Shown in pieces: positions 27,969 through 42,141 of a stretch of DNA of 64,000 nt (its first letter is position 1; each line of letters starts with the position of its first letter). This DNA is from Bernardetia sp. (GTDB lineage Bacteria > Bacteroidota > Bacteroidia > Cytophagales > Bernardetiaceae): the NCBI GenBank assembly GCA_020630575.1, contig JAHDBD010000004.1, forward strand, positions 1 to 64,000, written 5' to 3'. Below the pieces are notes generated by a model that did not search any database, had not been told where the DNA came from, and was given only the letters and a program-made list of their open reading frames with translations. A program made the position numbers and the translations under genes.

Positions 27969-30191
27969 TTAAAAATTAAATTGGATTGATGTTTTAATAA
28001 AAAATGGAGTTCCAGGAGTAAAAGTGATTTCTTCTACAGGTTCAGTTTCATTTTGTAATTGTGATTCTGTAGCAAATTGAGTTTCGTTCCAGTCAGTATC
28101 AAATAGATTTTGAATCTGAAAACCCAAATTAAACCTTCTCCATTTATATCCTGCATTCAAATCAAAAATAGTATATCCTTTTGCTACTATTGAGTTATCT
28201 TCATTAGCAGGACGATTATCCAAATAACGCATATTTATACTTCCATAAATGCCTGATCTATGAATAATATTGAGTCCACTAACCAATGTAAAATCAGGAG
28301 CTAAAGGAATATAATCCATTTCTTTAGCTTCGTCAATAGAACGAGCGTATGTATAATTAGCATCAAAACTCCAAAAAAACCAAGATAATGGCTGATAACG
28401 ATAACTTAAATCTACTCCTTGACGTTTAGTTTTTCCACTTGGTTCTACAATTCCAGCATCACCTACATACACAAATTCTTGCTCTAAGTAAAGATACCAA
28501 TAGGCTATGTTAAATAACATTTTTGGCGTTGGTTTCCATATAAACCCAGCATCCAAACCATAAGCAGCAGGAAGTATTTTTTTACCATCTTGTGCCACAA
28601 CTACACGTGTATCATTAGAATGAAAACCTTTTCCAGTCTTTAAGTAAAGCTGGAGTTTTTGTGATTGATTGTAAAAAATATTAAATTTTGGACTAACAAT
28701 AGCTTTGGTTTCTTCTTGTGTTTTATAAGTTGGAAGTAAATCATCATTATATTGAAAGTCAAAATAATCTAATCGTAGAGAAGGATTAAAAGTCCATTTA
28801 TTGATATAAATATCGGTTGCTATATATGCTCCTAAATTAGTTTCATTAATGTCTCCTAATTTAATTTGTTCAAGAGTTTTTGTACGATTTAGAGTATGAG
28901 ATAATTCGGTATCATTAGTTTGATCATTACGAAGACTGACTCCTAATTTCCAGTTTCCATTCAGACCACTTGTAGAAAAAGACTCATTGTATTCAGTATT
29001 TACACCATAAATAATACGATTTTCTTTTTGTTTAATTTGATCTCCATTTATAGGGTCTTCTAGAAAAAATGTAAAATTAGAAAAAAGTTCAAAATCATAC
29101 TGACTCAAATAAACAGAACTTTTTAAAGAAGAATTTTTAGTAATCAATTTATCATAATCAATTTTTAGATTACTTCTTGAAGTATTTCCTCCTTCGGTAT
29201 CATCTATCGCACCAAAACGACTTATCAACCCACTATCTACTGCACGTTGAGGTATCTGACCCGAGGCATCCCATTTACTAGTAAAATGAGAAGCAGTAAT
29301 ACTAATTTTATCAGTCTCCGAAACTAGAGCTGTATATTTTCCAAAAATATTAATTCTATTAAAATTTTGAGGACTTTCAAAAGCTCCATCAGAGGATTGA
29401 AATTCGGTTGCAATATATGCGTTGTTTTTGTTAGTATTGATTAGATTAAACATTCCTAATAACCTATATGTATCAAACTGTCCAACTTCTAGTTTTATAG
29501 AATTATAATCTAATTTTTGTTTTGTATTAAAATCTACATAGCCTGCAGTAGTAAAATTTCCTTTGTCTTCGTAATAAACTCCCTTGCCAAAATCAATTTT
29601 TTCAATTGTTTCAGGAATTACAAAATGTAAATCAGCATAGCCTTGTCCGTGTGCATGGGATACCATATTGACTGGAAGTCCGTCGACTGAAATACTAATA
29701 TCTGTGCCATGATCTATATCAAAACCACGTAAGAATATCTGTTCAGCTTTACCACCACCTGCATGTTGTCCAATGAAAAGCCCAGGTATTTTTCTCAAAA
29801 TATCCTGTGAAGAGTTTACAGGATTTGTTTGTATATCAATATCAGTTATGAGTTGAAGAGCATTTAGTTGTGGTTTAATAATTATTTCATCTAAATTTAT
29901 TGATGTTGCTTTCAACATAATATATAAAGGTATTTTTAAATCACTTATTACAAACAATTGACTTTGATAGCCAATATGCGAAAACTGTAAAGTATCTCCG
30001 ACAGATATATTTTCAAAGACAAAATTACCTTTTGCATCTGAGTGTGTATGATTATCAGTTGCTTTGCTTAAAATATTGACTTCTTGAAGAGGTCTTTCAT
30101 ATTCATCAACTACTGTTCCTGTAATGTTTTGTGCTATTGATAATGAAGTATTTAAAGCTATTAAAATAAGGGTAAAGAATGTTAATTTCAT
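27969..30191 (-). CDS. TonB-dependent receptor with CarboxypepD_reg-like domain
   Basis: A 740-residue outer-membrane receptor with signal peptide (ending SLSIAQN). Residues of about 22-95 form a CarboxypepD_reg-like domain (GTVVDEYERPLQEVNILS). The plug (about 120-225) includes LRKIPGLFIGQHAGGGKAEQ and DGLPVNMVSHAHGQGYADLH, a His-rich segment. The barrel ends FIKTSIQFNF. There is no SusD or lipoprotein partner next to it. The shorter size and single-gene context fit a small-ligand or metal receptor rather than a glycan system. The His cluster in the plug is a hint only. Confidence 0.9.
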   Translation of the reverse strand: MKLTFFTLILIALNTSLSIAQNITGTVVDEYERPLQEVNILSKATDNHTHSDAKGNFVFENISVGDTLQFSHIGYQSQLFVISDLKIPLYIMLKATSINLDEIIIKPQLNALQLITDIDIQTNPVNSSQDILRKIPGLFIGQHAGGGKAEQIFLRGFDIDHGTDISISVDGLPVNMVSHAHGQGYADLHFVIPETIEKIDFGKGVYYEDKGNFTTAGYVDFNTKQKLDYNSIKLEVGQFDTYRLLGMFNLINTNKNNAYIATEFQSSDGAFESPQNFNRINIFGKYTALVSETDKISITASHFTSKWDASGQIPQRAVDSGLISRFGAIDDTEGGNTSRSNLKIDYDKLITKNSSLKSSVYLSQYDFELFSNFTFFLEDPINGDQIKQKENRIIYGVNTEYNESFSTSGLNGNWKLGVSLRNDQTNDTELSHTLNRTKTLEQIKLGDINETNLGAYIATDIYINKWTFNPSLRLDYFDFQYNDDLLPTYKTQEETKAIVSPKFNIFYNQSQKLQLYLKTGKGFHSNDTRVVVAQDGKKILPAAYGLDAGFIWKPTPKMLFNIAYWYLYLEQEFVYVGDAGIVEPSGKTKRQGVDLSYRYQPLSWFFWSFDANYTYARSIDEAKEMDYIPLAPDFTLVSGLNIIHRSGIYGSINMRYLDNRPANEDNSIVAKGYTIFDLNAGYKWRRFNLGFQIQNLFDTDWNETQFATESQLQNETEPVEEITFTPGTPFFIKTSIQFNF

Positions 30192-30491
30192 TTAGTGGAT
30201 TCTGATTGATGGATATTTCAGTTTGTGTATTTTGTTTATAAGTAAAAACAGTCTTTAATTATTAATAAAGCTATTTTTTTAGAATTGCAATGTTACGACT
30301 AGAAGTTTAATTTAAAAAACTCTCTTTGTTTTCTTAACATAAAAAGTGACTAAAATTTACTGCTATTTGTAACAAATTGAGAATATTCCAATTTTTAAGA
30401 GGTAGGTTGGTTTTAGATGGGAACTTCTTATTTGATTTTAGAGTTTTGTTGATTATATAAGATTTTATGTATCAAAACTCCTTAAATTCAA
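30192..30491. other. Intergenic region with an inverted repeat before the next gene
   Basis: A 300-bp space between divergent genes without coding frames. Near its right end GAGTTTTG (30441-30448) and CAAAACTC (30473-30480) form an 8-bp inverted repeat ending 11 bp before the start codon at 30492. It may be an operator or leader hairpin. Confidence 0.4.
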
Positions 30492-30782
30492 ATGAGAAAC
30501 TACAAATTAGAAAAATTGCAAAACGGAGAAACATTCGTTACAAGTGAAAAAGGAAATTCGATGATACCTTTAATTAAATCAGGTCAGAAACATAAACTTG
30601 CACCTGTCAAATGGGAAGATTGCAATGAAAAAGATATTGTTTACTGTAAAGTGAGAGGTAATTTTTATACTCACTTAGTAAAAGCGAAGAGTAATGATAA
30701 AGGGTTACTTATCGGAAATAATAAAGGTGGAACTAACGGATGGACAAGGCAAGTCTATGGGCGTGTGATTGAGATTCTTTAG
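30492..30782 (+). CDS. Small S24/S26 peptidase-like protein
   Basis: A 96-residue protein. The N-terminal GNSMIPLIKSG resembles the Ser-Met-Pro motif around the nucleophile of LexA/signal-peptidase (S24/S26) domains. About 30 residues later NEKDIVYCKVRGNFYTHLVKA follows, matching the region where these enzymes carry the second catalytic residue. Here a His is at the place used by archaeal/eukaryote-type signal peptidases. No DNA-binding or membrane helix is present. It may be a stand-alone, perhaps phage-derived, protease-like domain or an inactive one. The start ATG follows an 8-bp inverted repeat. Confidence 0.65.
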   Translation: MRNYKLEKLQNGETFVTSEKGNSMIPLIKSGQKHKLAPVKWEDCNEKDIVYCKVRGNFYTHLVKAKSNDKGLLIGNNKGGTNGWTRQVYGRVIEIL

Positions 30783-30956
30783 CCTTGCATATAACGATTT
30801 TTGGATTGATAATTAGTAAAAAATTTATACAAAAGAAAAAAGTCAAGTTGATTTGAGAATGATATAAACATCAAAAAAACTTTTCTTTGCATTAAGCTAA
30901 GAACTTGGGAAAATTAAAGGTGTGATGTTTTGATATATTTACAGAATGAAGCTTTT

Positions 30957-31151
30957 TTATATAAACATTGACCCACACATTCCCAAACCAATAAGTAAAT
31001 ATATTGCAGCAAGTATAAAAAGCACTTTGCTTGCTTTTGGATTGTTTTTATATAAAAAAACACCTATTACACTTAATAACAGAGGTGGTCCAAACATTAC
31101 TCCTATTATAAGAGCTATCAATCCATTTAGATTCCCAATTTCTAGTATCAT
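30957..31151 (-). CDS. Small two-TM membrane protein in the radical SAM operon
   Basis: A 64-residue protein with two membrane helices (about 9-31 and 43-62) and a short Lys/Asn turn between. It begins 4 bp after the radical SAM gene stop, a spacing typical of translational coupling. An overlapping plus-strand frame covers the same bases but has no context, so I take this strand. No family was recognised. It could hold the radical SAM enzyme at the membrane or be a short envelope protein; that is speculation from gene order. Confidence 0.6.
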   Translation of the reverse strand: MILEIGNLNGLIALIIGVMFGPPLLLSVIGVFLYKNNPKASKVLFILAAIYLLIGLGMCGSMFI

Positions 31152-31154
31152 AGT

Positions 31155-32552
31155 TTAAAATTTAATTTCGTTACGTAATTCTTCTAATCGGACTAACTTT
31201 TCATCTCTATAAAACAAATTCATTGTCTCAAATGGAATAATTTTATTATTCTTATCAACAATATGTACACAAGATTTTTTTATCGCTCTAACATCAAAAT
31301 TATAGGCATCAATAAATTGCATAATGATGATTCTAAATAAGTTGTCATAGCCTAAATTAGGAGCATCAATATTTGGCAAACAGCACATAATAGATTTTAA
31401 GTTTTCTTCTGCCACTTCAACAGAATTTCCTGTGCTAAATAATTCAATCATTTTTTCTTGAAGCACATTATCTTGCTCGTAGATTATAGTATTTTTACTA
31501 TTATCTAACAAATCATTTGGATTGATATACCTTGTTAAAGGAAAAACCTCATTGTCTAGTTTTAAAGCATAACCCATAACCAAAGCATCAGGATTACATG
31601 GAACTGGCAATAAATCATCTGCATGAAAAATAGAAGTCTGCTCCAAAATTTTTCTTCTCACTTCAGTTAAAGTCATTCTATCCGTTTCTGGATTGAAATT
31701 TTCTAAACGTCCAACAATTTGTGTGGGTTGAAATGTCACTCCTCTAATGCACTTTTGTTGTAAGGCAAACTCAATTATTTTTCCGATTTCATTATCATTT
31801 AAACCTTTTTGTAAAGTAACGACGAGTGTTGTTGAAAGGTTAAGTTCATTCAGATTTTCAATAGCTTGTTTTCTAATTTCATTCAAATTAGCTCCTCTCA
31901 TTTTTTTTAAAACACTATTCTCAAAAGAATCAAATTGCAAATAGATTTCAAAATCTGGTGAATAACTTTTTAATCGTTTCGCAAATTCTTTGTCTTTGGC
32001 TATTTTGATTCCATTTGTATTTAACATCAAATGTCTTATAGGTAAAGATTTTGCATAATCTAGTATTTCAAAAAATTGTGGATGAATAGTTGGTTCTCCT
32101 CCACTAATCTGAACAACATCAGGTTCTTTTTCATTTAAAACAATAGTATCCAACATCGTTTTTACTTCCTCTAATGTTCGATGTCTTCCATAAGTGGGTG
32201 AAGAACCAGCATAACATGTAGGGCAAGTTAAATTGCACCTGTCTGTAACTTCAATAACTGTCAAACAAGAATGCTGCTCGTGGTCTGGACACAAACCACA
32301 GTCATACGGACAACCATAGTCAGTTTTTGTATTAAATTTATAAGGTGTTTCTGAAGGTTTATTATAGTTTCTTATATTTTTGTAATATGGAATATCATCA
32401 GCAATCAATACTTTAGATTTTCCGTGTTCTGGACATCGTTTGAGCATATAAACGTTATCATTTTCAAAAACAATTTTGGCATCAATTCTCTTTAAGCATT
32501 CTGGACAAAGGCTCAATGTATAATCGTAATAGGTGTAATTTCTAACTGGCAT
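31155..32552 (-). CDS. Radical SAM enzyme, tetraether lipid synthase (Tes)-like
   Basis: A 465-residue enzyme. The radical SAM motif CxxxCxxC is Cys106-110-113 in TDRCNLTCPTC. The N-terminal part carries many more cysteines: CPEC (16, 19), CPEHG (40), GCPYDCGLC (81, 85, 88) and Cys96, which should hold extra iron or Fe-S sites. SAM-binding GGE is in ISGGEPTIHP; LQFDSF and LNTNGIKIAKD are also present. This layout matches the archaeal tetraether synthase Tes and bacterial relatives (including TrsS-type). Tes joins lipid alkyl chains at terminal carbons. It overlaps by 11 bp an Lgt-fold gene, which supports a lipid substrate. The exact reaction is inferred. Confidence 0.85.
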   Translation of the reverse strand: MPVRNYTYYDYTLSLCPECLKRIDAKIVFENDNVYMLKRCPEHGKSKVLIADDIPYYKNIRNYNKPSETPYKFNTKTDYGCPYDCGLCPDHEQHSCLTVIEVTDRCNLTCPTCYAGSSPTYGRHRTLEEVKTMLDTIVLNEKEPDVVQISGGEPTIHPQFFEILDYAKSLPIRHLMLNTNGIKIAKDKEFAKRLKSYSPDFEIYLQFDSFENSVLKKMRGANLNEIRKQAIENLNELNLSTTLVVTLQKGLNDNEIGKIIEFALQQKCIRGVTFQPTQIVGRLENFNPETDRMTLTEVRRKILEQTSIFHADDLLPVPCNPDALVMGYALKLDNEVFPLTRYINPNDLLDNSKNTIIYEQDNVLQEKMIELFSTGNSVEVAEENLKSIMCCLPNIDAPNLGYDNLFRIIIMQFIDAYNFDVRAIKKSCVHIVDKNNKIIPFETMNLFYRDEKLVRLEELRNEIKF

Positions 32553-33282
32553 TTTTGAAGAGATTAAAAATTGTTTTGTAATAATAAGTTAAGCAAATTA
32601 GACATAAAATTTGAATGGAACTCAAACCAAAAATAAAAAAGACATTCGGTTTTAAAAATTCAATAAAAAAACGAAAGCCAAAATAGCAAATCATGAAATA
32701 TTGAAATAATAAGCCATTTTTTAAATTTGTGTGTTTTAGTTTTGATAAAAACAGAAAAAGAAGCACCAAAAACACTAATTCATAAAGTGCAATTGGATGT
32801 CTTTTTAAATTATCTCCAAGATTCATTCCCAGAAAAAAAGTGGTTACTTTTCCATAAGTAAACTCATTAATCCCAGACAAAAAGCAACCAATTCTTCCAA
32901 TAAAAATTCCAAGAATAATTGGAAATACAAATAAATCACCTGATGATTGTTTTTCTCCAATAATTTTTTTAGCAATCTCAACTCCTAAAAGTCCTCCAAA
33001 CAAACCACCCATAATAGTTTTGGAGTTTAGATAAGTAATTATAGTTGAAACATCATAAGTAAAAACTGGATTTTCTAACAAGGCTATAATTCTTGAACCT
33101 AAAAAAGCTCCAATTGCAGCTCCCAATATTATTGAAAGTCGGTTTGAACTTGGAATAAAATCTATAGACCGTTTTCTTAGCCAAACATAATATCTATAAG
33201 ATAAAAAAAAAGCTAAATACTCAAGAATTAGATGAATATTGAGTTTATAGTCCAAAATGACTGGTTCAAATGGTATTGTCAA
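32542..33282 (-). CDS. Lgt-like membrane protein (prolipoprotein diacylglyceryl transferase family)
   Basis: A 246-residue protein with about seven membrane helices, first gene of an operon with a Tes-like radical SAM enzyme. Lgt family marks are the loop GRIGCFLSGINEFTYG, HPIALYE and FRFFIEFLKP. In canonical Lgt a His-Gly-Gly motif follows the second helix; here the stretch is GGLFGGLLG and the His is replaced by Phe. So it may not transfer diacylglycerol to lipoproteins in the usual way. The start is TTG at 33282, the only start codon that fits the family N-terminus (TIPFEPVI). A housekeeping Lgt is expected elsewhere. Confidence 0.8.
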   Translation of the reverse strand: MTIPFEPVILDYKLNIHLILEYLAFFLSYRYYVWLRKRSIDFIPSSNRLSIILGAAIGAFLGSRIIALLENPVFTYDVSTIITYLNSKTIMGGLFGGLLGVEIAKKIIGEKQSSGDLFVFPIILGIFIGRIGCFLSGINEFTYGKVTTFFLGMNLGDNLKRHPIALYELVFLVLLFLFLSKLKHTNLKNGLLFQYFMICYFGFRFFIEFLKPNVFFIFGLSSIQILCLICLTYYYKTIFNLFKNAS

Positions 33283-33723
33283 TGTTTTTCGTTTATATGA
33301 AGTTGTATATGTTTATGCTATTTAGTCAATAGTAAGTAACTAAAATGCACTTATTTTTTTGGTCTTATTTTCAGCTAAAAATACAATTTTATTTACAAAA
33401 CATGCCAAATTAGAAATTTGGAAAATTAATCATAAATATTCTTCGTCTAGGTGATACAGAAGGTCTATTTTTGCGAAATAAATTGTGAAGGAATTGAGAT
33501 GTATTTTTATCTAAAATAGCATCTGCTATTTCCTACTGTCTATTAAAATAAAAATCTCCAACAAATACTTCTTACAGGAATTTCAATTTAAAGTTTTTCT
33601 CCACACTCTTGATAAGATAACCACTCAAGTTCAGATACGTTATAAAACCTATTGTACAAGTAAAATTTTATAATATCAAGGCATTAAACTACATCTCTTA
33701 TCAGCACATAAAAAATCTATAAA
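33283..33723. other. AT-rich intergenic region between divergent genes
   Basis: A 441-bp spacer with no coding frame. It must contain the promoter for the Lgt-like/radical SAM operon and possibly for the gene at 33724. Only a weak 7-bp hairpin (AAATAGC/GCTATTT near 33515-33532) was seen. Confidence 0.5.
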
Positions 33724-37710: not shown

Positions 37711-38277
37711 TTATTTTTCGATAGTCGCAGAAATTATAAAATACGAATTTTTATCATCTACTTCTTTGAATTCTACTTGAAGAGGATGTTCTGACTTGAG
37801 AGCTACCTGTATGAGTCCAATATTGCCTCCTTTTTGCTCTTCGGTACGTTCTATACTTCTAACTTCTTTTTTCAAGGCTCGTAGTTCGTCTATGCTAAGA
37901 GAATTTATTTGCTCACATTTAGCAATAATTTCTTTTACTTTTTCTGATGGAACAAGATTTCCAGCACTCAAAACAACTTCTGAACCTTCGTTATGTATAA
38001 CGACTGTTCCAACTCCATTATTTTTTTTGTCTTCATGTGAATATTTAATATCCTTTTTTACTTCTTCATCATAAAAGAAATTTGACTCCTCAGAATAATA
38101 GGCAATATTTTGAGCCAACTCAATAAAAATAGAGAAAAGTTTGGCACTCATGCGTGGATTATCAGTAAATCTACGGCGTAATTGTAGACTAATATTTGCT
38201 AAAATATCTTTATCAAAAGGTCCTTTGTAATATAATACAGCACTTTGAGGGTCTAGACGTGTATGATAATCCATCAT
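37711..38277 (-). CDS. SiaB-like protein kinase (DUF6272)
   Basis: A 188-residue protein with a GHKL-type ATP-binding fold. The N-box is ELAQNIAYYS and a late glycine motif is GGNIGLIQVALKS. In the SiaABC system SiaB phosphorylates SiaC on Thr. It lies between the SiaA-like phosphatase (66 bp upstream) and the SiaC-like gene (30 bp downstream), all on the minus strand. A second ATG follows directly after the first, so the start is uncertain by one codon. The kinase role is inferred from the family and neighbours. Confidence 0.85.
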   Translation of the reverse strand: MMDYHTRLDPQSAVLYYKGPFDKDILANISLQLRRRFTDNPRMSAKLFSIFIELAQNIAYYSEESNFFYDEEVKKDIKYSHEDKKNNGVGTVVIHNEGSEVVLSAGNLVPSEKVKEIIAKCEQINSLSIDELRALKKEVRSIERTEEQKGGNIGLIQVALKSEHPLQVEFKEVDDKNSYFIISATIEK

Positions 38278-38343
38278 AGTTGAAACTTATTTTTATGAAA
38301 AATTAATTATTAGTAGAATAGGTTATTTGTTATATATTTGATT

Positions 38344-41300
38344 CTAAACTTTGAAACCAAATACAGTAATATCATCTCGCTGTTCGGTTGCTTTTTGATG
38401 ATTAGCAAGACGTGTTTCAAAAATTTTCATTTGTTCTTTTGCTGATAAATGTGCTACTTCTAACATGAGTTCTCTAAAACTTTTCTTAGAAAAACTCTTT
38501 CTGTCTTCATTTGCTTGATCTGGATATCCGTCAGTAGCTAAAAAGACAGCATCATTTCTTTGAAGTACAATACTTTCTTGTGTGTACTCTCTCTCATCAT
38601 CTCGTTTGCCTCCACCAATAGAACGTCTATTGCCTCTGAGTTCGATGAGTTCTTTATCCCTAACAATGTATAGATTTTGTTTGACACCACCAAATGTTAG
38701 TTGAGTTTGATTATTTGATATTCCTTCTAGCAAACAAAGCGTCAAATCCATTCCATCATTATTTGCACCTTCTTTTTGATTGAGTTTCTTGACTACTCCT
38801 TTATGCAGCTCTTGTAGTATAATATTAGGTTGTAAAATTCCTTTTTGGTTAATAATTTCACTCAAAATATTAGAAGCTACTAAGCTCATAAATGCACCAG
38901 GAACGCCGTGTCCTGTACAATCAATTACACCAACAAGTGTTTTATTTTCATGTCTGGATAACCAATAAAAATCTCCTGAAACAATGTCTTTAGGCTTATA
39001 GATAATAAAGCTATCAGGTAAAGTTTCTTTTATTAATTTCTTTGATGGCAATATAGCTTTTTGTATTGTTTCTGCATAACTAATACTTTTAGTGATTTGA
39101 CGATTGCTAATTTCAAGTATATCTTTTTGGTAAGCTAACACTTCTTGTGTAGTTTGGAGTTCTTCCATGTTTTGGCGTAGCTCTTCCTCCTGTGTTTGCA
39201 AGGCATCAAAACTTTCTCTGAGCTTCATATCTTGCGTTTTCATTTTTTGGAATGCTTTTTTGAGGACAGCTTCATTAGAGGCAAGTTTTTCATTTTGCTT
39301 TTCCAATGAAATTTTAGCTTCTTCTACTAATTTCTGTTTTTGCTCCATAGCTTCTTGTGTAGCTTCTAGCTCTTCCATATTTTGGCGTAACTCTTCCTCT
39401 TGAGCTTGCAAAGAACCTAAACTATCTTTTAATTGATCTTCTTGAACTTTCATTTTTTCGAAAGTCTTTTTAAGAACAGATTCATTAGCAACCAACTTTT
39501 GATTATGTTTTTCTAAAGCTGCTTTTGAATCTTCTATAAGAATTTGTTTTTCTCTCATAGCTTCTTGAGTAGCTTGAAGTTCTTCCATATTTTGACGAAG
39601 TTCTTCTTCTGTAGCTAATAGTTCTTCTTGTCTAGTTTGAGCTTCTATTTCAGTTGCTTTTTGAAGATTATAATTGCTTGCAATTTTTATTATTCGTACA
39701 ACTTGTCCAGCTTCATTCTTAATAGGACAATATGCTCCAAAAAGCCATAAATCATTACCTGATTTAGTTTTACGTTTAAAAACACCTATATAAGTCTCAC
39801 CTCTTTCTAGGGTTTGCCATAGCTCATCATACTGCTCTTTATCCTCTTGTGTAGTAGGTATTAAATCAATATGTGATTTGTGTTGAAGCTCATCTACCTC
39901 ATACTCAAACCATTCAGCTAAAAGAGAATTTACTCGTGTTACCTTTCTATTAGTATCCACTTCAATGTATCCAAAAGCAGAATTAATGGCTTTGAATTGA
40001 GCATCTAATTCAGCAAAGGCACTATTAACACGGTCTTGTGTCGTTTCTAGTTCCTCCATATTTTGACGCAATTCTTCCTCTTGTGCTTGTAATGAAGCAA
40101 AACTATCTTTTAATTGGCTTTCTTGCAATTTCATTTTATCAAATGCTTTCTTGAGAATAGCCTCATTATGTATCAACTTAGCATTTTGCTTTTCTGTAGT
40201 TAGTTTTGATTGTTCTATAAGAGTTTGTTTTTCTCTCATAGCCTCTTGAGTAGTTTGAAGTTCTTCTAAGTTTTGACGAAGTTCTTCTTCTGTTGTAGCT
40301 AGAATTTCATTTTTTTCTTTTAACTCTATTTCCTTTGCTTTTCTTTCAGTAACATCTTGAAAAACAGAAATAGCATATTCGACATTTCCATCTTCGTTAT
40401 ATATAGGAGATGCATGTACTTCTAATGGTGTGCGCTTAGAACCATTAACAACTTCAATATCATCAATATAAGTTTGTTTTCCTTGAAGAGCAACAGTAAG
40501 TGGTAATTTTTCTTGAGGATAATTTTCTTCTGTTCCTGCTATTTTGGTAGGATAAAGAGTAGCCAGATCATCTCCTTCTTTGAAATCAACTAATCCTTTA
40601 CCAAAAACTGTTGTTGCTATTTCATTAGAAAAGAATAAAACGCCATTGTTGTCAATAATAGAAATACCAGCAGGTATATTATTCAAAAACTGAAACAAAC
40701 GTTTCTCATTTTGCCTTACTTTTTCTTGTTCTTCTAGTTGTTGCTTTGTTTTAATTGCAATAGTAATCACATCTGCAACTCCTTTAATAAAAGCAATATC
40801 TTCGTCTGTCCAATTTCTATATTTATTTTGAGCTTCACAGCAAATTACACCTGCTAATTTTCCATCTATAAAATAGGGAATATCAAGCATTGATTTTATT
40901 TTTAATGGAATTAGATAAGAATCAACAAACTCCACTAAAGCAGGATGATTTTGGGCAAAGTCAGCGACTATATTTTTTTCAGTAATTATATCTGCAAAAT
41001 ACTTTGGAGTATCGTTTTGCTTTATTTGAGCACCTTGAGTAAAAGCATGTCCTTTTTCAGTGGTTTCATATTGTTTTTGACAAATAATTTTGACTTCATT
41101 TGTAGTATCGTATCGCCAAATACCTACACGTTCTATGTTTAGAGTTTGGGCTACTAATTTAGTAATTAATTCAAAAGCAACATCTAAATTGCCTGCATAT
41201 ATGTCTTTATTTTTATTTATATCTAAAAGAACTTGACTATTTCTTTCTAAAATTTCACTTTTTGTTTTGATTTGTTTGTTAATCTCTTGAATATAGTCTC

Positions 41301-42141
41301 GTTGAGTTTCTAATTCCTCTAAATTTTGACGCAGTTCTTCTTCAGTAGCTTGTAATTGCTCTTGATTCGCTTGAATTTGATTTTCTTGTTCTTTTCTATC
41401 TGTAATTAAATAACGAATAGATAAGTAACTAGTAATTTTCTTATTTGCATTTAATATAGGATTAATGACCGTATCGACCCAATAAAAAGAACCATCTTTG
41501 GCTTTATTTTTCACATCAGCACGCCAAGTTTTTCCTCTTGTTATGGTTTGCCACATCTTTTGCCAAAATTCTTTTGGATGATATGCTGAATTTACGATTT
41601 TATGGTCTTGTCCTAAAAGTTCTTGTTCTGAATATTGAGAAATTCGACAAAACTCTTGATTTACTTTTATAATTTTGCCTTGTATATCAGCAATAGAAAT
41701 GATTGCACTTCGATCTAAAGCCTCTGTAATGGCTTTTAACTCTTGGTCTTGATTTTTTGTAGTATCATTTTCTACTCTATCGTTATTACGAAGTATAATT
41801 TGTACTAGTTTTTTGTCATCTATTAAAATTTTAGATAAAAATATTTTCACATGTGTTTTCGTGTTCTTCTTATCAAGAAAAGTCCACTCAAAAACATCTT
41901 TACCTTCTAATAAACATTTATTCAAATGCTTCTCTAATTCAAGACTTTCAACCTTACTTTGAGCAAAATCAGATAATGTTTTATTTATCAGTTCTTGTTC
42001 GTCTTCAACTTGAAAAAGTAGCTGAGCTAATTCATTACACAGAATAATTACTCCCTGCTGCAAAACTAAGATTGCATCTGGATAAGTTGTATAGAAAGAT
42101 TTATATAGTTGCAGTTCGTTACTTGTTCTATTTTGGTTCAT
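38344..42141 (-). CDS. PAS/GAF/coiled-coil SpoIIE-type PP2C phosphatase, SiaA-like input
   Basis: A 1265-residue cytoplasmic sensor phosphatase. Order: PAS (about 12-110), PAS with PAC (138-250), coiled coil, GAF (305-470), PAS (480-600), coiled coil, PAS (725-840), long coiled coil (850-1020), SpoIIE/PP2C (1045-1265). Metal-binding motifs are intact: GVIDCTGHGVPGAFMSL, NDGMDLTLC and FLATDGYPDQ. The coiled coils contain six repeats of EEELRQN(L/M)EEL with a near 70-residue period. It probably dephosphorylates the SiaC-like protein encoded two genes downstream. There is no membrane segment, so the signal is probably a small cytoplasmic ligand or redox state. Confidence 0.9.
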   Translation of the reverse strand: MNQNRTSNELQLYKSFYTTYPDAILVLQQGVIILCNELAQLLFQVEDEQELINKTLSDFAQSKVESLELEKHLNKCLLEGKDVFEWTFLDKKNTKTHVKIFLSKILIDDKKLVQIILRNNDRVENDTTKNQDQELKAITEALDRSAIISIADIQGKIIKVNQEFCRISQYSEQELLGQDHKIVNSAYHPKEFWQKMWQTITRGKTWRADVKNKAKDGSFYWVDTVINPILNANKKITSYLSIRYLITDRKEQENQIQANQEQLQATEEELRQNLEELETQRDYIQEINKQIKTKSEILERNSQVLLDINKNKDIYAGNLDVAFELITKLVAQTLNIERVGIWRYDTTNEVKIICQKQYETTEKGHAFTQGAQIKQNDTPKYFADIITEKNIVADFAQNHPALVEFVDSYLIPLKIKSMLDIPYFIDGKLAGVICCEAQNKYRNWTDEDIAFIKGVADVITIAIKTKQQLEEQEKVRQNEKRLFQFLNNIPAGISIIDNNGVLFFSNEIATTVFGKGLVDFKEGDDLATLYPTKIAGTEENYPQEKLPLTVALQGKQTYIDDIEVVNGSKRTPLEVHASPIYNEDGNVEYAISVFQDVTERKAKEIELKEKNEILATTEEELRQNLEELQTTQEAMREKQTLIEQSKLTTEKQNAKLIHNEAILKKAFDKMKLQESQLKDSFASLQAQEEELRQNMEELETTQDRVNSAFAELDAQFKAINSAFGYIEVDTNRKVTRVNSLLAEWFEYEVDELQHKSHIDLIPTTQEDKEQYDELWQTLERGETYIGVFKRKTKSGNDLWLFGAYCPIKNEAGQVVRIIKIASNYNLQKATEIEAQTRQEELLATEEELRQNMEELQATQEAMREKQILIEDSKAALEKHNQKLVANESVLKKTFEKMKVQEDQLKDSLGSLQAQEEELRQNMEELEATQEAMEQKQKLVEEAKISLEKQNEKLASNEAVLKKAFQKMKTQDMKLRESFDALQTQEEELRQNMEELQTTQEVLAYQKDILEISNRQITKSISYAETIQKAILPSKKLIKETLPDSFIIYKPKDIVSGDFYWLSRHENKTLVGVIDCTGHGVPGAFMSLVASNILSEIINQKGILQPNIILQELHKGVVKKLNQKEGANNDGMDLTLCLLEGISNNQTQLTFGGVKQNLYIVRDKELIELRGNRRSIGGGKRDDEREYTQESIVLQRNDAVFLATDGYPDQANEDRKSFSKKSFRELMLEVAHLSAKEQMKIFETRLANHQKATEQRDDITVFGFKV

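Follow-up and report, generated by a model that had tools for sequence, protein, structure and literature searches.

A three-gene cassette encoding a Cys-variant Lgt paralogue, a Tes-like radical SAM enzyme and a two-helix cysteine peptide: a possible membrane lipopeptide system

Gene content of the locus

The window, by which we mean the whole stretch of DNA analyzed here, comprises 64,000 nucleotides of a Bernardetia genome (assembly GCA_020630575.1, contig JAHDBD010000004.1) and contains a cassette of three consecutive genes on the minus strand. The first gene (32542..33282, -) has a TTG start and encodes a multi-pass membrane protein of 246 amino acids, an Lgt-like paralogue that we call Lgt2. 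The second (31155..32552, -) encodes a 465-amino-acid radical SAM enzyme resembling Tes and TrsS (rSAM hereafter), and the third (30957..31151, -) a 64-amino-acid peptide with two transmembrane (TM) segments, the proposed lipid acceptor. The frames of Lgt2 and rSAM overlap by 11 bp (32542-32552). An earlier, sequence-only reading of this locus had described three minus-strand genes with an 11-bp overlap, and the ORF coordinates agree on both counts; it also gave a 4-bp gap before the peptide gene, which the coordinates correct to 3 bp.

On the other strand, a 96-amino-acid ORF (window 30492-30782, +) adjoins the cassette; its S24-like match is weak and falls below cut-off (E 0.01). At window 37711-42141 (-), a DUF6272 protein lies beside a 1265-amino-acid PAS/GAF/SpoIIE-phosphatase protein, possibly a stress or partner-switch signaling pair. 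We also considered a defense system and rejected it, since the PADLOC matches were limited to weak pVip ones in the radical SAM domain (49.5 bits).

Relationship of the radical SAM enzyme to Tes

The Pfam matches of rSAM are Radical_SAM (1.4e-28) and Zn_ribbon_HMPTM (3.4e-21). Its metal-site residues are almost invariant among the 37 core rows of the family alignment. In the rubredoxin-like site C16-x2-C19-x20-C40-x2-H43 (CPEC...CPEH; 32424..32507, -), each cysteine is present in 37/37 rows and the histidine in 36/37, and the spacing is the CX2CX20CX2H described for GDGT-MAS (PMC9433317). Conservation is complete (37/37) for the N-terminal auxiliary cluster motif GCPYDCGLCPDH (C81-x3-C85-x2-C88-x2-H91; 32280..32312, -), for the radical SAM motif CNLTCPTC (C106-x3-C110-x2-C113; 32214..32237, -) and for C428 (31269..31271, -), which lies in the C-terminal auxiliary-cluster region and aligns with RCCIHY of 7tol. 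The multi-cysteine layout noticed earlier (CPxC...C, the N-terminal auxiliary motif, CNLTCPTC) is thus present at defined residues.

The predicted structure of rSAM has the overall fold of GDGT-MAS (MJ0619, PDB 7tol/7tom), and the closest fold to the model is that of a lipid enzyme; one row (L121) is out of frame in the alignment behind the model and the 7tol comparison, which slightly weakens both. Together with the alignment to 7tol and the conserved metal-site residues, the fold comparison bears out the Tes-type architecture first suggested from the letters. Shared with GDGT-MAS are the full-length fold, the rubredoxin-like Cys2-Cys-His site, the N-terminal auxiliary cluster motif, the radical SAM motif and the C-terminal DAYNFDV…C…IIPF region. 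The window enzyme differs in its bacterial host, in the Lgt paralogue and TM-Cys peptides alongside, and in the neighborhood of the C-terminal cluster, where ISCMHF of GDGT-MAS corresponds to IIIMQF and where C390-C391 are extra. The labile Met and a C-terminal Cys align between the two proteins, whereas the Cys adjoining the Met does not; part of residues 349-396 is poorly modeled. Because residues of the C-terminal cluster differ, the chemistry of rSAM may differ from that of GDGT-MAS.

Against NCBIfam Tes (NF045702), rSAM scores 297 bits, below the cut-off of 450, and against TrsS (NF045646), the best-scoring curated family, 345 bits, below 490. We therefore rejected membership of either family, and file rSAM, from these scores, as a divergent relative of Tes rather than a member. 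Related rSAMs of M. vanbaalenii (335 bits) and Halorarius (352 bits) also fall below the TrsS cut-off, and their partner is a DVU_1556-like methyltransferase instead of an Lgt and a peptide. TrsS is named a "(seleno)protein," a name that allows Cys forms; the window gene is an open frame without internal TGA and is partnered by Lgt2 and the peptide. A search of the genome (84.5% complete) gave one additional match (32%, residues 94-269), which is a different rSAM, and no second copy of full length.

Substitutions in the Lgt paralogue

Lgt2 matches the broader Pfam family LGT (3.4e-24; 85.9 bits over a cut-off of 24.9) and structure comparison supports an Lgt fold, in agreement with the family assignment of the sequence-only reading. 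The genome has one other Lgt, on contig C74, which is the stronger match (229.7 vs. 85.5 bits). Against TIGR00544 (Lgt), Lgt2 scores 42.8 bits, below the cut-off of 118.9. What Lgt2 has in common with Lgt (5azb; TIGR00544) is the fold, R143, G154, R239 and the HPxxLYE motif; R143 and R239 of EcLgt are kept as R130 and R204, each in 27/27 rows. R130 forms part of the signature GR-x-G-C (32884..32895, -), found as GRxGC in 50/50 family rows, whose cysteine C133 occupies the place of EcLgt N146: this position is Cys in 50/50 Lgt2-family rows and Asn in both canonical Lgt rows. The HGG histidine (H103) is also lost, with no His in the motif in 50/50 rows, and the Y26 position is mostly His. Given these changes, the sub-cut-off score and the different partner genes, we file Lgt2, judging by sequence, as a divergent relative rather than a member of Lgt proper.

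EcLgt requires both H103 and N146 (PMC4728403, PMC13251419). Since both are changed, transfer by Lgt2 may be weak, different or absent. As described in PMC13251419, some Lgt proteins have Y, W or F at H103, distant Lgt proteins have C at N146, and a Leptospira Lgt with N146C partly works.

Cysteine peptides downstream of the enzyme

The window peptide ends in …LIGLGM-C-GSMFI, with a lipobox-like cysteine at C59 (30975..30977, -). We surveyed 135 rSAM loci for the first small TM ORF lying no more than 450 bp downstream, chosen regardless of Cys. Such an ORF was found at 118 loci and was absent at 13; the contig was too short at four. Among the 118, 110 (94 distinct sequences) carry [GSA]-x-C followed by 3-20 residues at the C-terminal end, and 114 have some Cys in the last 25 residues. 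In four of these the Cys does not belong to the motif: it lies in an inner helix in L027, L029 and L054, and the ORF of L113 is a chance one. The eight ORFs without the motif are this chance ORF and a two-TM paralogue in each of seven loci (L027, L029, L040, L054, L058, L059, L060), where it lies directly after rSAM and is itself followed by a Cys peptide; the L059 paralogue has a Trp about where the Cys would be. Where the downstream ORF is absent, the peptide is upstream of Lgt2 in L110-L112, L114 and L145 (the same place as L110) and after Lgt2 in L120, L124 and L125; L118 and L119 are short pieces of L124 and L125. No TM-Cys peptide was seen at L072, which has ~1 kb of sequence downstream, or at L105/L138, both from a single genome (G092).

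A second survey, of ORFs of 50-130 amino acids, used a hydrophobic 15-mer free of charged or strongly polar residues and ending at a Cys ≤25 residues from the C-terminus. This TM-Cys motif occurs in 172 of 2697 short ORFs, and 168 of the 172 lie within 2.5 kb of rSAM on the same strand. It is absent at 17 of 138 rSAM loci, owing to cut contigs, lengths >130, polar helix residues, two Tes-clade loci or real absence. In the window, the peptide is the sole ORF with a C-terminal TM-Cys among 76 ORFs of 50-130 amino acids. In both surveys many loci are close relatives and some overlap, and the motifs were written after the peptides had been seen.

A further set of 35 peptides was hand-picked for Cys, so that Cys is present in 35/35 by choice and the two ORF surveys are the less biased. 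In this set, position -2 is G or S in 32, position -1 is A, S or T in 21 and I/M/V/L in 14, position -3 is mostly F, and the tail after the Cys has 3-14 residues (median 7). Because of the residues at -1 and -3, the motif is not a textbook lipobox, and L-G-M-C of the window peptide does not fit [LVI][ASTVI][GAS]C. Before the last helix, Lys+Arg outnumber Asp+Glu in 31 of the 35 peptides and equal them in four; they are fewer in none.

Tandem divergent peptides occur in several loci: four (GFSSC, GASTC, GFSVC, GFSLC) follow one rSAM in L008/L141 (genome G019), three are found in L009/L127 and two in several others. A search of the window's own genome for paralogues of the peptide, of a kind that would miss divergent peptides, gave nothing beyond one match at E 0.5.

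Co-occurrence and linkage

The sequence-only reading had proposed a neighborhood survey for conserved pairing of the radical SAM and Lgt-like genes; pairing is indeed conserved. Our named loci are the 80 best among 248 relatives; by their record titles, they all belong to Flavobacteriaceae-type Bacteroidota. Among these best 80, Lgt2 is matched in all, four times as fragments only (L013, L029, L065, L088), and the peptide has a homologue in 79, the exception being L072. Across loci, pairwise identities of rSAM and of Lgt2 are correlated (r 0.90, 35 loci); shared ancestry could by itself produce such a correlation.

We then took 395 Bacteroidota genomes as one set for both rSAM and Lgt searches, scoring four (rSAM) and six (Lgt profile) first-look candidates per genome; the Lgt profile was built in part from genomes that it then counted, and L003, a canonical Lgt, is among its rows. 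At 1e-30, 34 of the 395 genomes give an rSAM match, and 31 of these score at least 349 bits. Lgt profile scores split into 32 genomes with at least 250 bits and other matches with at most 173. Lgt2 is present in all 31 high-scoring rSAM genomes and in one of the 364 others (G075). In 29 of the 31, rSAM and Lgt2 lie within ~1.2 kb of each other; G092 and G323 carry them on separate contigs, and in G092 no TM-Cys peptide is near either gene. Of the other three genomes with an rSAM match, G123 and G353 contain the Tes-clade loci treated below, and G151 has a divergent rSAM, an adjacent GRVGC Lgt-like gene (below the Lgt survey threshold) and an upstream TM-Cys peptide found at a laxer threshold only. 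The Lgt2 of G075 (L157, 6153-6998), without an rSAM match at 1e-30 in its genome, is possibly a relic or a case of solo use.

We rejected a wider gene cluster around the cassette. When ORFs of at least 80 amino acids in the 80 named loci are clustered (top 14 clusters), rSAM (80) and Lgt2 (79) come first; the next cluster reaches only 54 loci, mostly on the opposite strand, and the one after it 47, on either of the two strands. At a distance of 3-5 kb upstream there are two same-strand clusters, one found in 45 loci and the other in 38.

In a distant rSAM group (L120 4285-5356, L124 5771-6448, L125 5518-6513), a DUF4395 gene lies between rSAM and Lgt2, assigned by Pfam in L120 and L124 and by homology in L125; L120 has an additional ICMT/PEMT-like methyltransferase. 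Such genes may point to additional processing of a thiol or lipid product. They would also suit a reading that we consider quite unlikely, in which Lgt2 is no transferase but a lipid-binding or lipid-handing subunit, its Cys133 pairs with the peptide Cys through disulfide or thiol exchange, and the peptides are subunits of an rSAM membrane complex. The loss of H103 and N146, the new conserved Cys and the predicted position of the two conserved cysteines on the same membrane face agree with such a role; the retention of R143, G154, R239 and HPxxLYE, and the partial activity of the Leptospira N146C enzyme (PMC13251419), speak for a transferase, and one to four divergent peptide copies resemble substrates more than subunits.

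Horizontal transfer

A tblastn search of plasmids yielded 10 records, of which eight were examined (those of Haloarcula halophila and Halalkalicoccus were left out). A Persicobacter (Bacteroidota) plasmid record contains Lgt2, rSAM and a 59-amino-acid peptide. Plasmids of M. branderi, M. avium and Nonomuraea encode an rSAM 27% identical to that of the window, a GRxGC Lgt-like gene and two, two and one TM-Cys peptides, respectively, so that the trio is present in two genera of Actinomycetota. In M. branderi, one of the two Mycobacterium plasmid loci (L167, L169), an IS200/IS605 transposase and TnpB come after the trio; one opposite-strand ORF of L169 fits the TM-Cys motif and is taken as chance. 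The records of M. vanbaalenii and three haloarchaea have a methyltransferase partner, which is DVU_1556-like but, in the two scanned, scores below the family cut-off. They lack a TM-Cys ORF at the threshold used for the trio; a laxer one gives two such ORFs in L163 and one in L166, unlike the peptides of the cassette family.

The second mycobacterial Lgt homologue MSMEG_5408, as described in PMC13251419, combines Y26H with N146C, as do Lgt2 and the plasmid copies of M. branderi and M. avium; neither "radical" nor "operon" occurs in the text of that paper. The cassette offers a possible role for such second Lgt copies with N146C.

Within Bacteroidota, comparison of the window with five Flavobacterium loci aligns only 30953-33289 (77-82% DNA identity), and the flanks do not align. 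Five congeners have no rSAM match at 1e-20; their alignments cover the sequence to the right of ~33.7-34.1 kb but leave out the operon, and for one of them the contig ends there. In G004, whose contig ends ~1.9 kb upstream of fabF, the site was comparable only in part. The window rSAM nests within Flavobacterium in a quick tree (SH-aLRT 97 for the window with the same species, 95 for the 13-row set). Bin contamination was considered, given the 95% identity between rSAM and its counterpart in Flavobacterium aquaticum, and was rejected on two grounds: a second genome of the same species carries the operon (28406-33428, 96% identity), and the right flank belongs natively to the genus. The earlier placement of the operon in a Bacteroidota cell is right, to which the alignments, the congeners and the tree add that the cassette, on this sequence evidence, is horizontally acquired.

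The co-occurrence of the three parts, their linkage across phyla and the transfer of the trio alone weigh heavily against ordinary redundancy, that is, a second Lgt for normal lipoproteins lying by chance beside an unrelated rSAM; Lgt family membership fits that explanation, which we nevertheless hold to be very improbable. That the three parts form one functional unit we regard as almost certain.

A possible lipopeptide pathway

We propose that the unit is a three-part membrane lipopeptide system, a reading to which we give a probability of roughly 0.4 as a whole. Its motif and charge pattern suggest that the peptide would insert so that the loop preceding its last helix faces the cytoplasm, following the positive-inside rule, which would place the conserved Cys at the outer face of the inner membrane, in the geometry of a lipoprotein signal. 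Lgt2 keeps the two arginines by which Lgt holds phosphatidylglycerol, with a rebuilt acceptor side (no HGG His, Asn146 to Cys, mostly Tyr26 to His), and would move diacylglycerol onto the peptide Cys as a thioether; that this Cys is the acceptor of Lgt2 is a prediction we narrowly favor. The cytosolic rSAM, judged by its fold and metal sites, would take lipid chains into its active site and abstract hydrogen from C-H by means of a 5'-deoxyadenosyl radical. It may join the chain ends or alter them in another way, working either on the donor lipid ahead of the transfer or on the lipid already bound to the peptide; action of rSAM on lipid chains is, on modeled fold and metal-site conservation, slightly better than an even prospect. 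What results would be a very small membrane peptide whose lipid anchor is unusual and perhaps cross-linked.

Several observations count against this model. A cytosolic rSAM stands opposite a lipid fixed at the outer face, an access that the model leaves unaccounted for. L072 and G092 lack a peptide nearby, Lgt2 is unlinked in G323 and stands without an rSAM match in G075, and in seven loci the nearest TM ORF is motif-less, though a Cys peptide comes next. A more specific form of the model, in which the Cys-variant Lgt lipidates the C-terminal Cys of two-helix peptides and the Tes-like rSAM then welds the chain ends, in Bacteroidota and Actinomycetota alike, we think unlikely. If true, the welds would lie inside a single anchor or run between anchors or membrane lipids, and the peptide would be covalently lipid-stapled and possibly membrane-spanning, a product class not known before. 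The lipopeptide model in general would extend lipid attachment from N-terminal lipoboxes to the Cys of a C-terminal membrane helix.

The closest published idea is the DAG-RiPP (PMC12636315). Its dyb product, as described there, resembles our proposed product in being a genome-encoded small peptide of Bacteroidota with a diacylglyceryl-Cys. DAG-RiPPs use a canonical N-terminal lipobox, the housekeeping Lgt/LspA pathway and an MNIO, whereas in the cassette the Lgt paralogue is dedicated, the Cys is C-terminal and the radical SAM enzyme is Tes-like. These RiPP-lipoprotein hybrids are also a Bacteroidota precedent for an improbable rival reading: rSAM would be a maturase acting on the peptide proper, with the conserved Cys as one example of a site, and Lgt2 would lipidate or anchor that peptide. 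Small, tandem, divergent, precursor-like peptides do adjoin rSAM; set against this, they are mostly hydrophobic helices with little in common beyond [GS]-x-C, their Cys is predicted on the side away from the cytosolic enzyme, and the closest fold to rSAM is that of a lipid enzyme.

A search of open PMC full text, with subscription papers outside its scope, found no paper describing the peptide-Lgt-rSAM trio; as far as that text reaches, the lipopeptide cassette is an undescribed three-part system. Bacterial relatives of Tes are numerous and their roles unproven (PMC8941075, PMC11868695, PMC9433317). Here such an enzyme has a conserved partner and, in cultured Flavobacteriaceae, a concrete candidate for the acceptor peptide, which makes the role of bacterial Tes-like enzymes directly testable.

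Zeng et al. (PMC8941075) proposed that bacterial Tes homologues make membrane-spanning lipids. Applied here, rSAM would couple iso-branched fatty tails into bulk lipids of the iso-diabolic type, with Lgt2 and the peptide as accessories. The fold and metal sites of GDGT-MAS suit this, and Flavobacterium johnsoniae counts iso-branched C15:0 among its most abundant fatty acids (PMC4484230). We consider it unlikely, given that rSAM falls below the Tes cut-off and that the multiplied divergent Cys peptides and the co-occurrence of Lgt2 would be left unaccounted for. Moreover, neither Lgt2 nor a TM-Cys peptide was found alongside the two Tes-clade loci of Bacteroidota (L122 and L123, of G123 and G353), whose rSAMs score 493.8 and 441.9 bits, the first passing and the second just missing the Tes cut-off of 450. 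The sequence-only reading had inferred "an unusual membrane lipid or lipid-protein link"; its parts were right and its emphasis on lipid is plausible, while the peptide changes the picture. These loci and the family scores of rSAM argue against the bulk membrane lipid, and the lipobox-like Cys of the two-TM peptide makes the lipid-protein link the better fit. The rSAM of L122 (4364-5818), over the Tes cut-off in a Bacteroidota genome, is itself a candidate for true bacterial tetraether-type chemistry.
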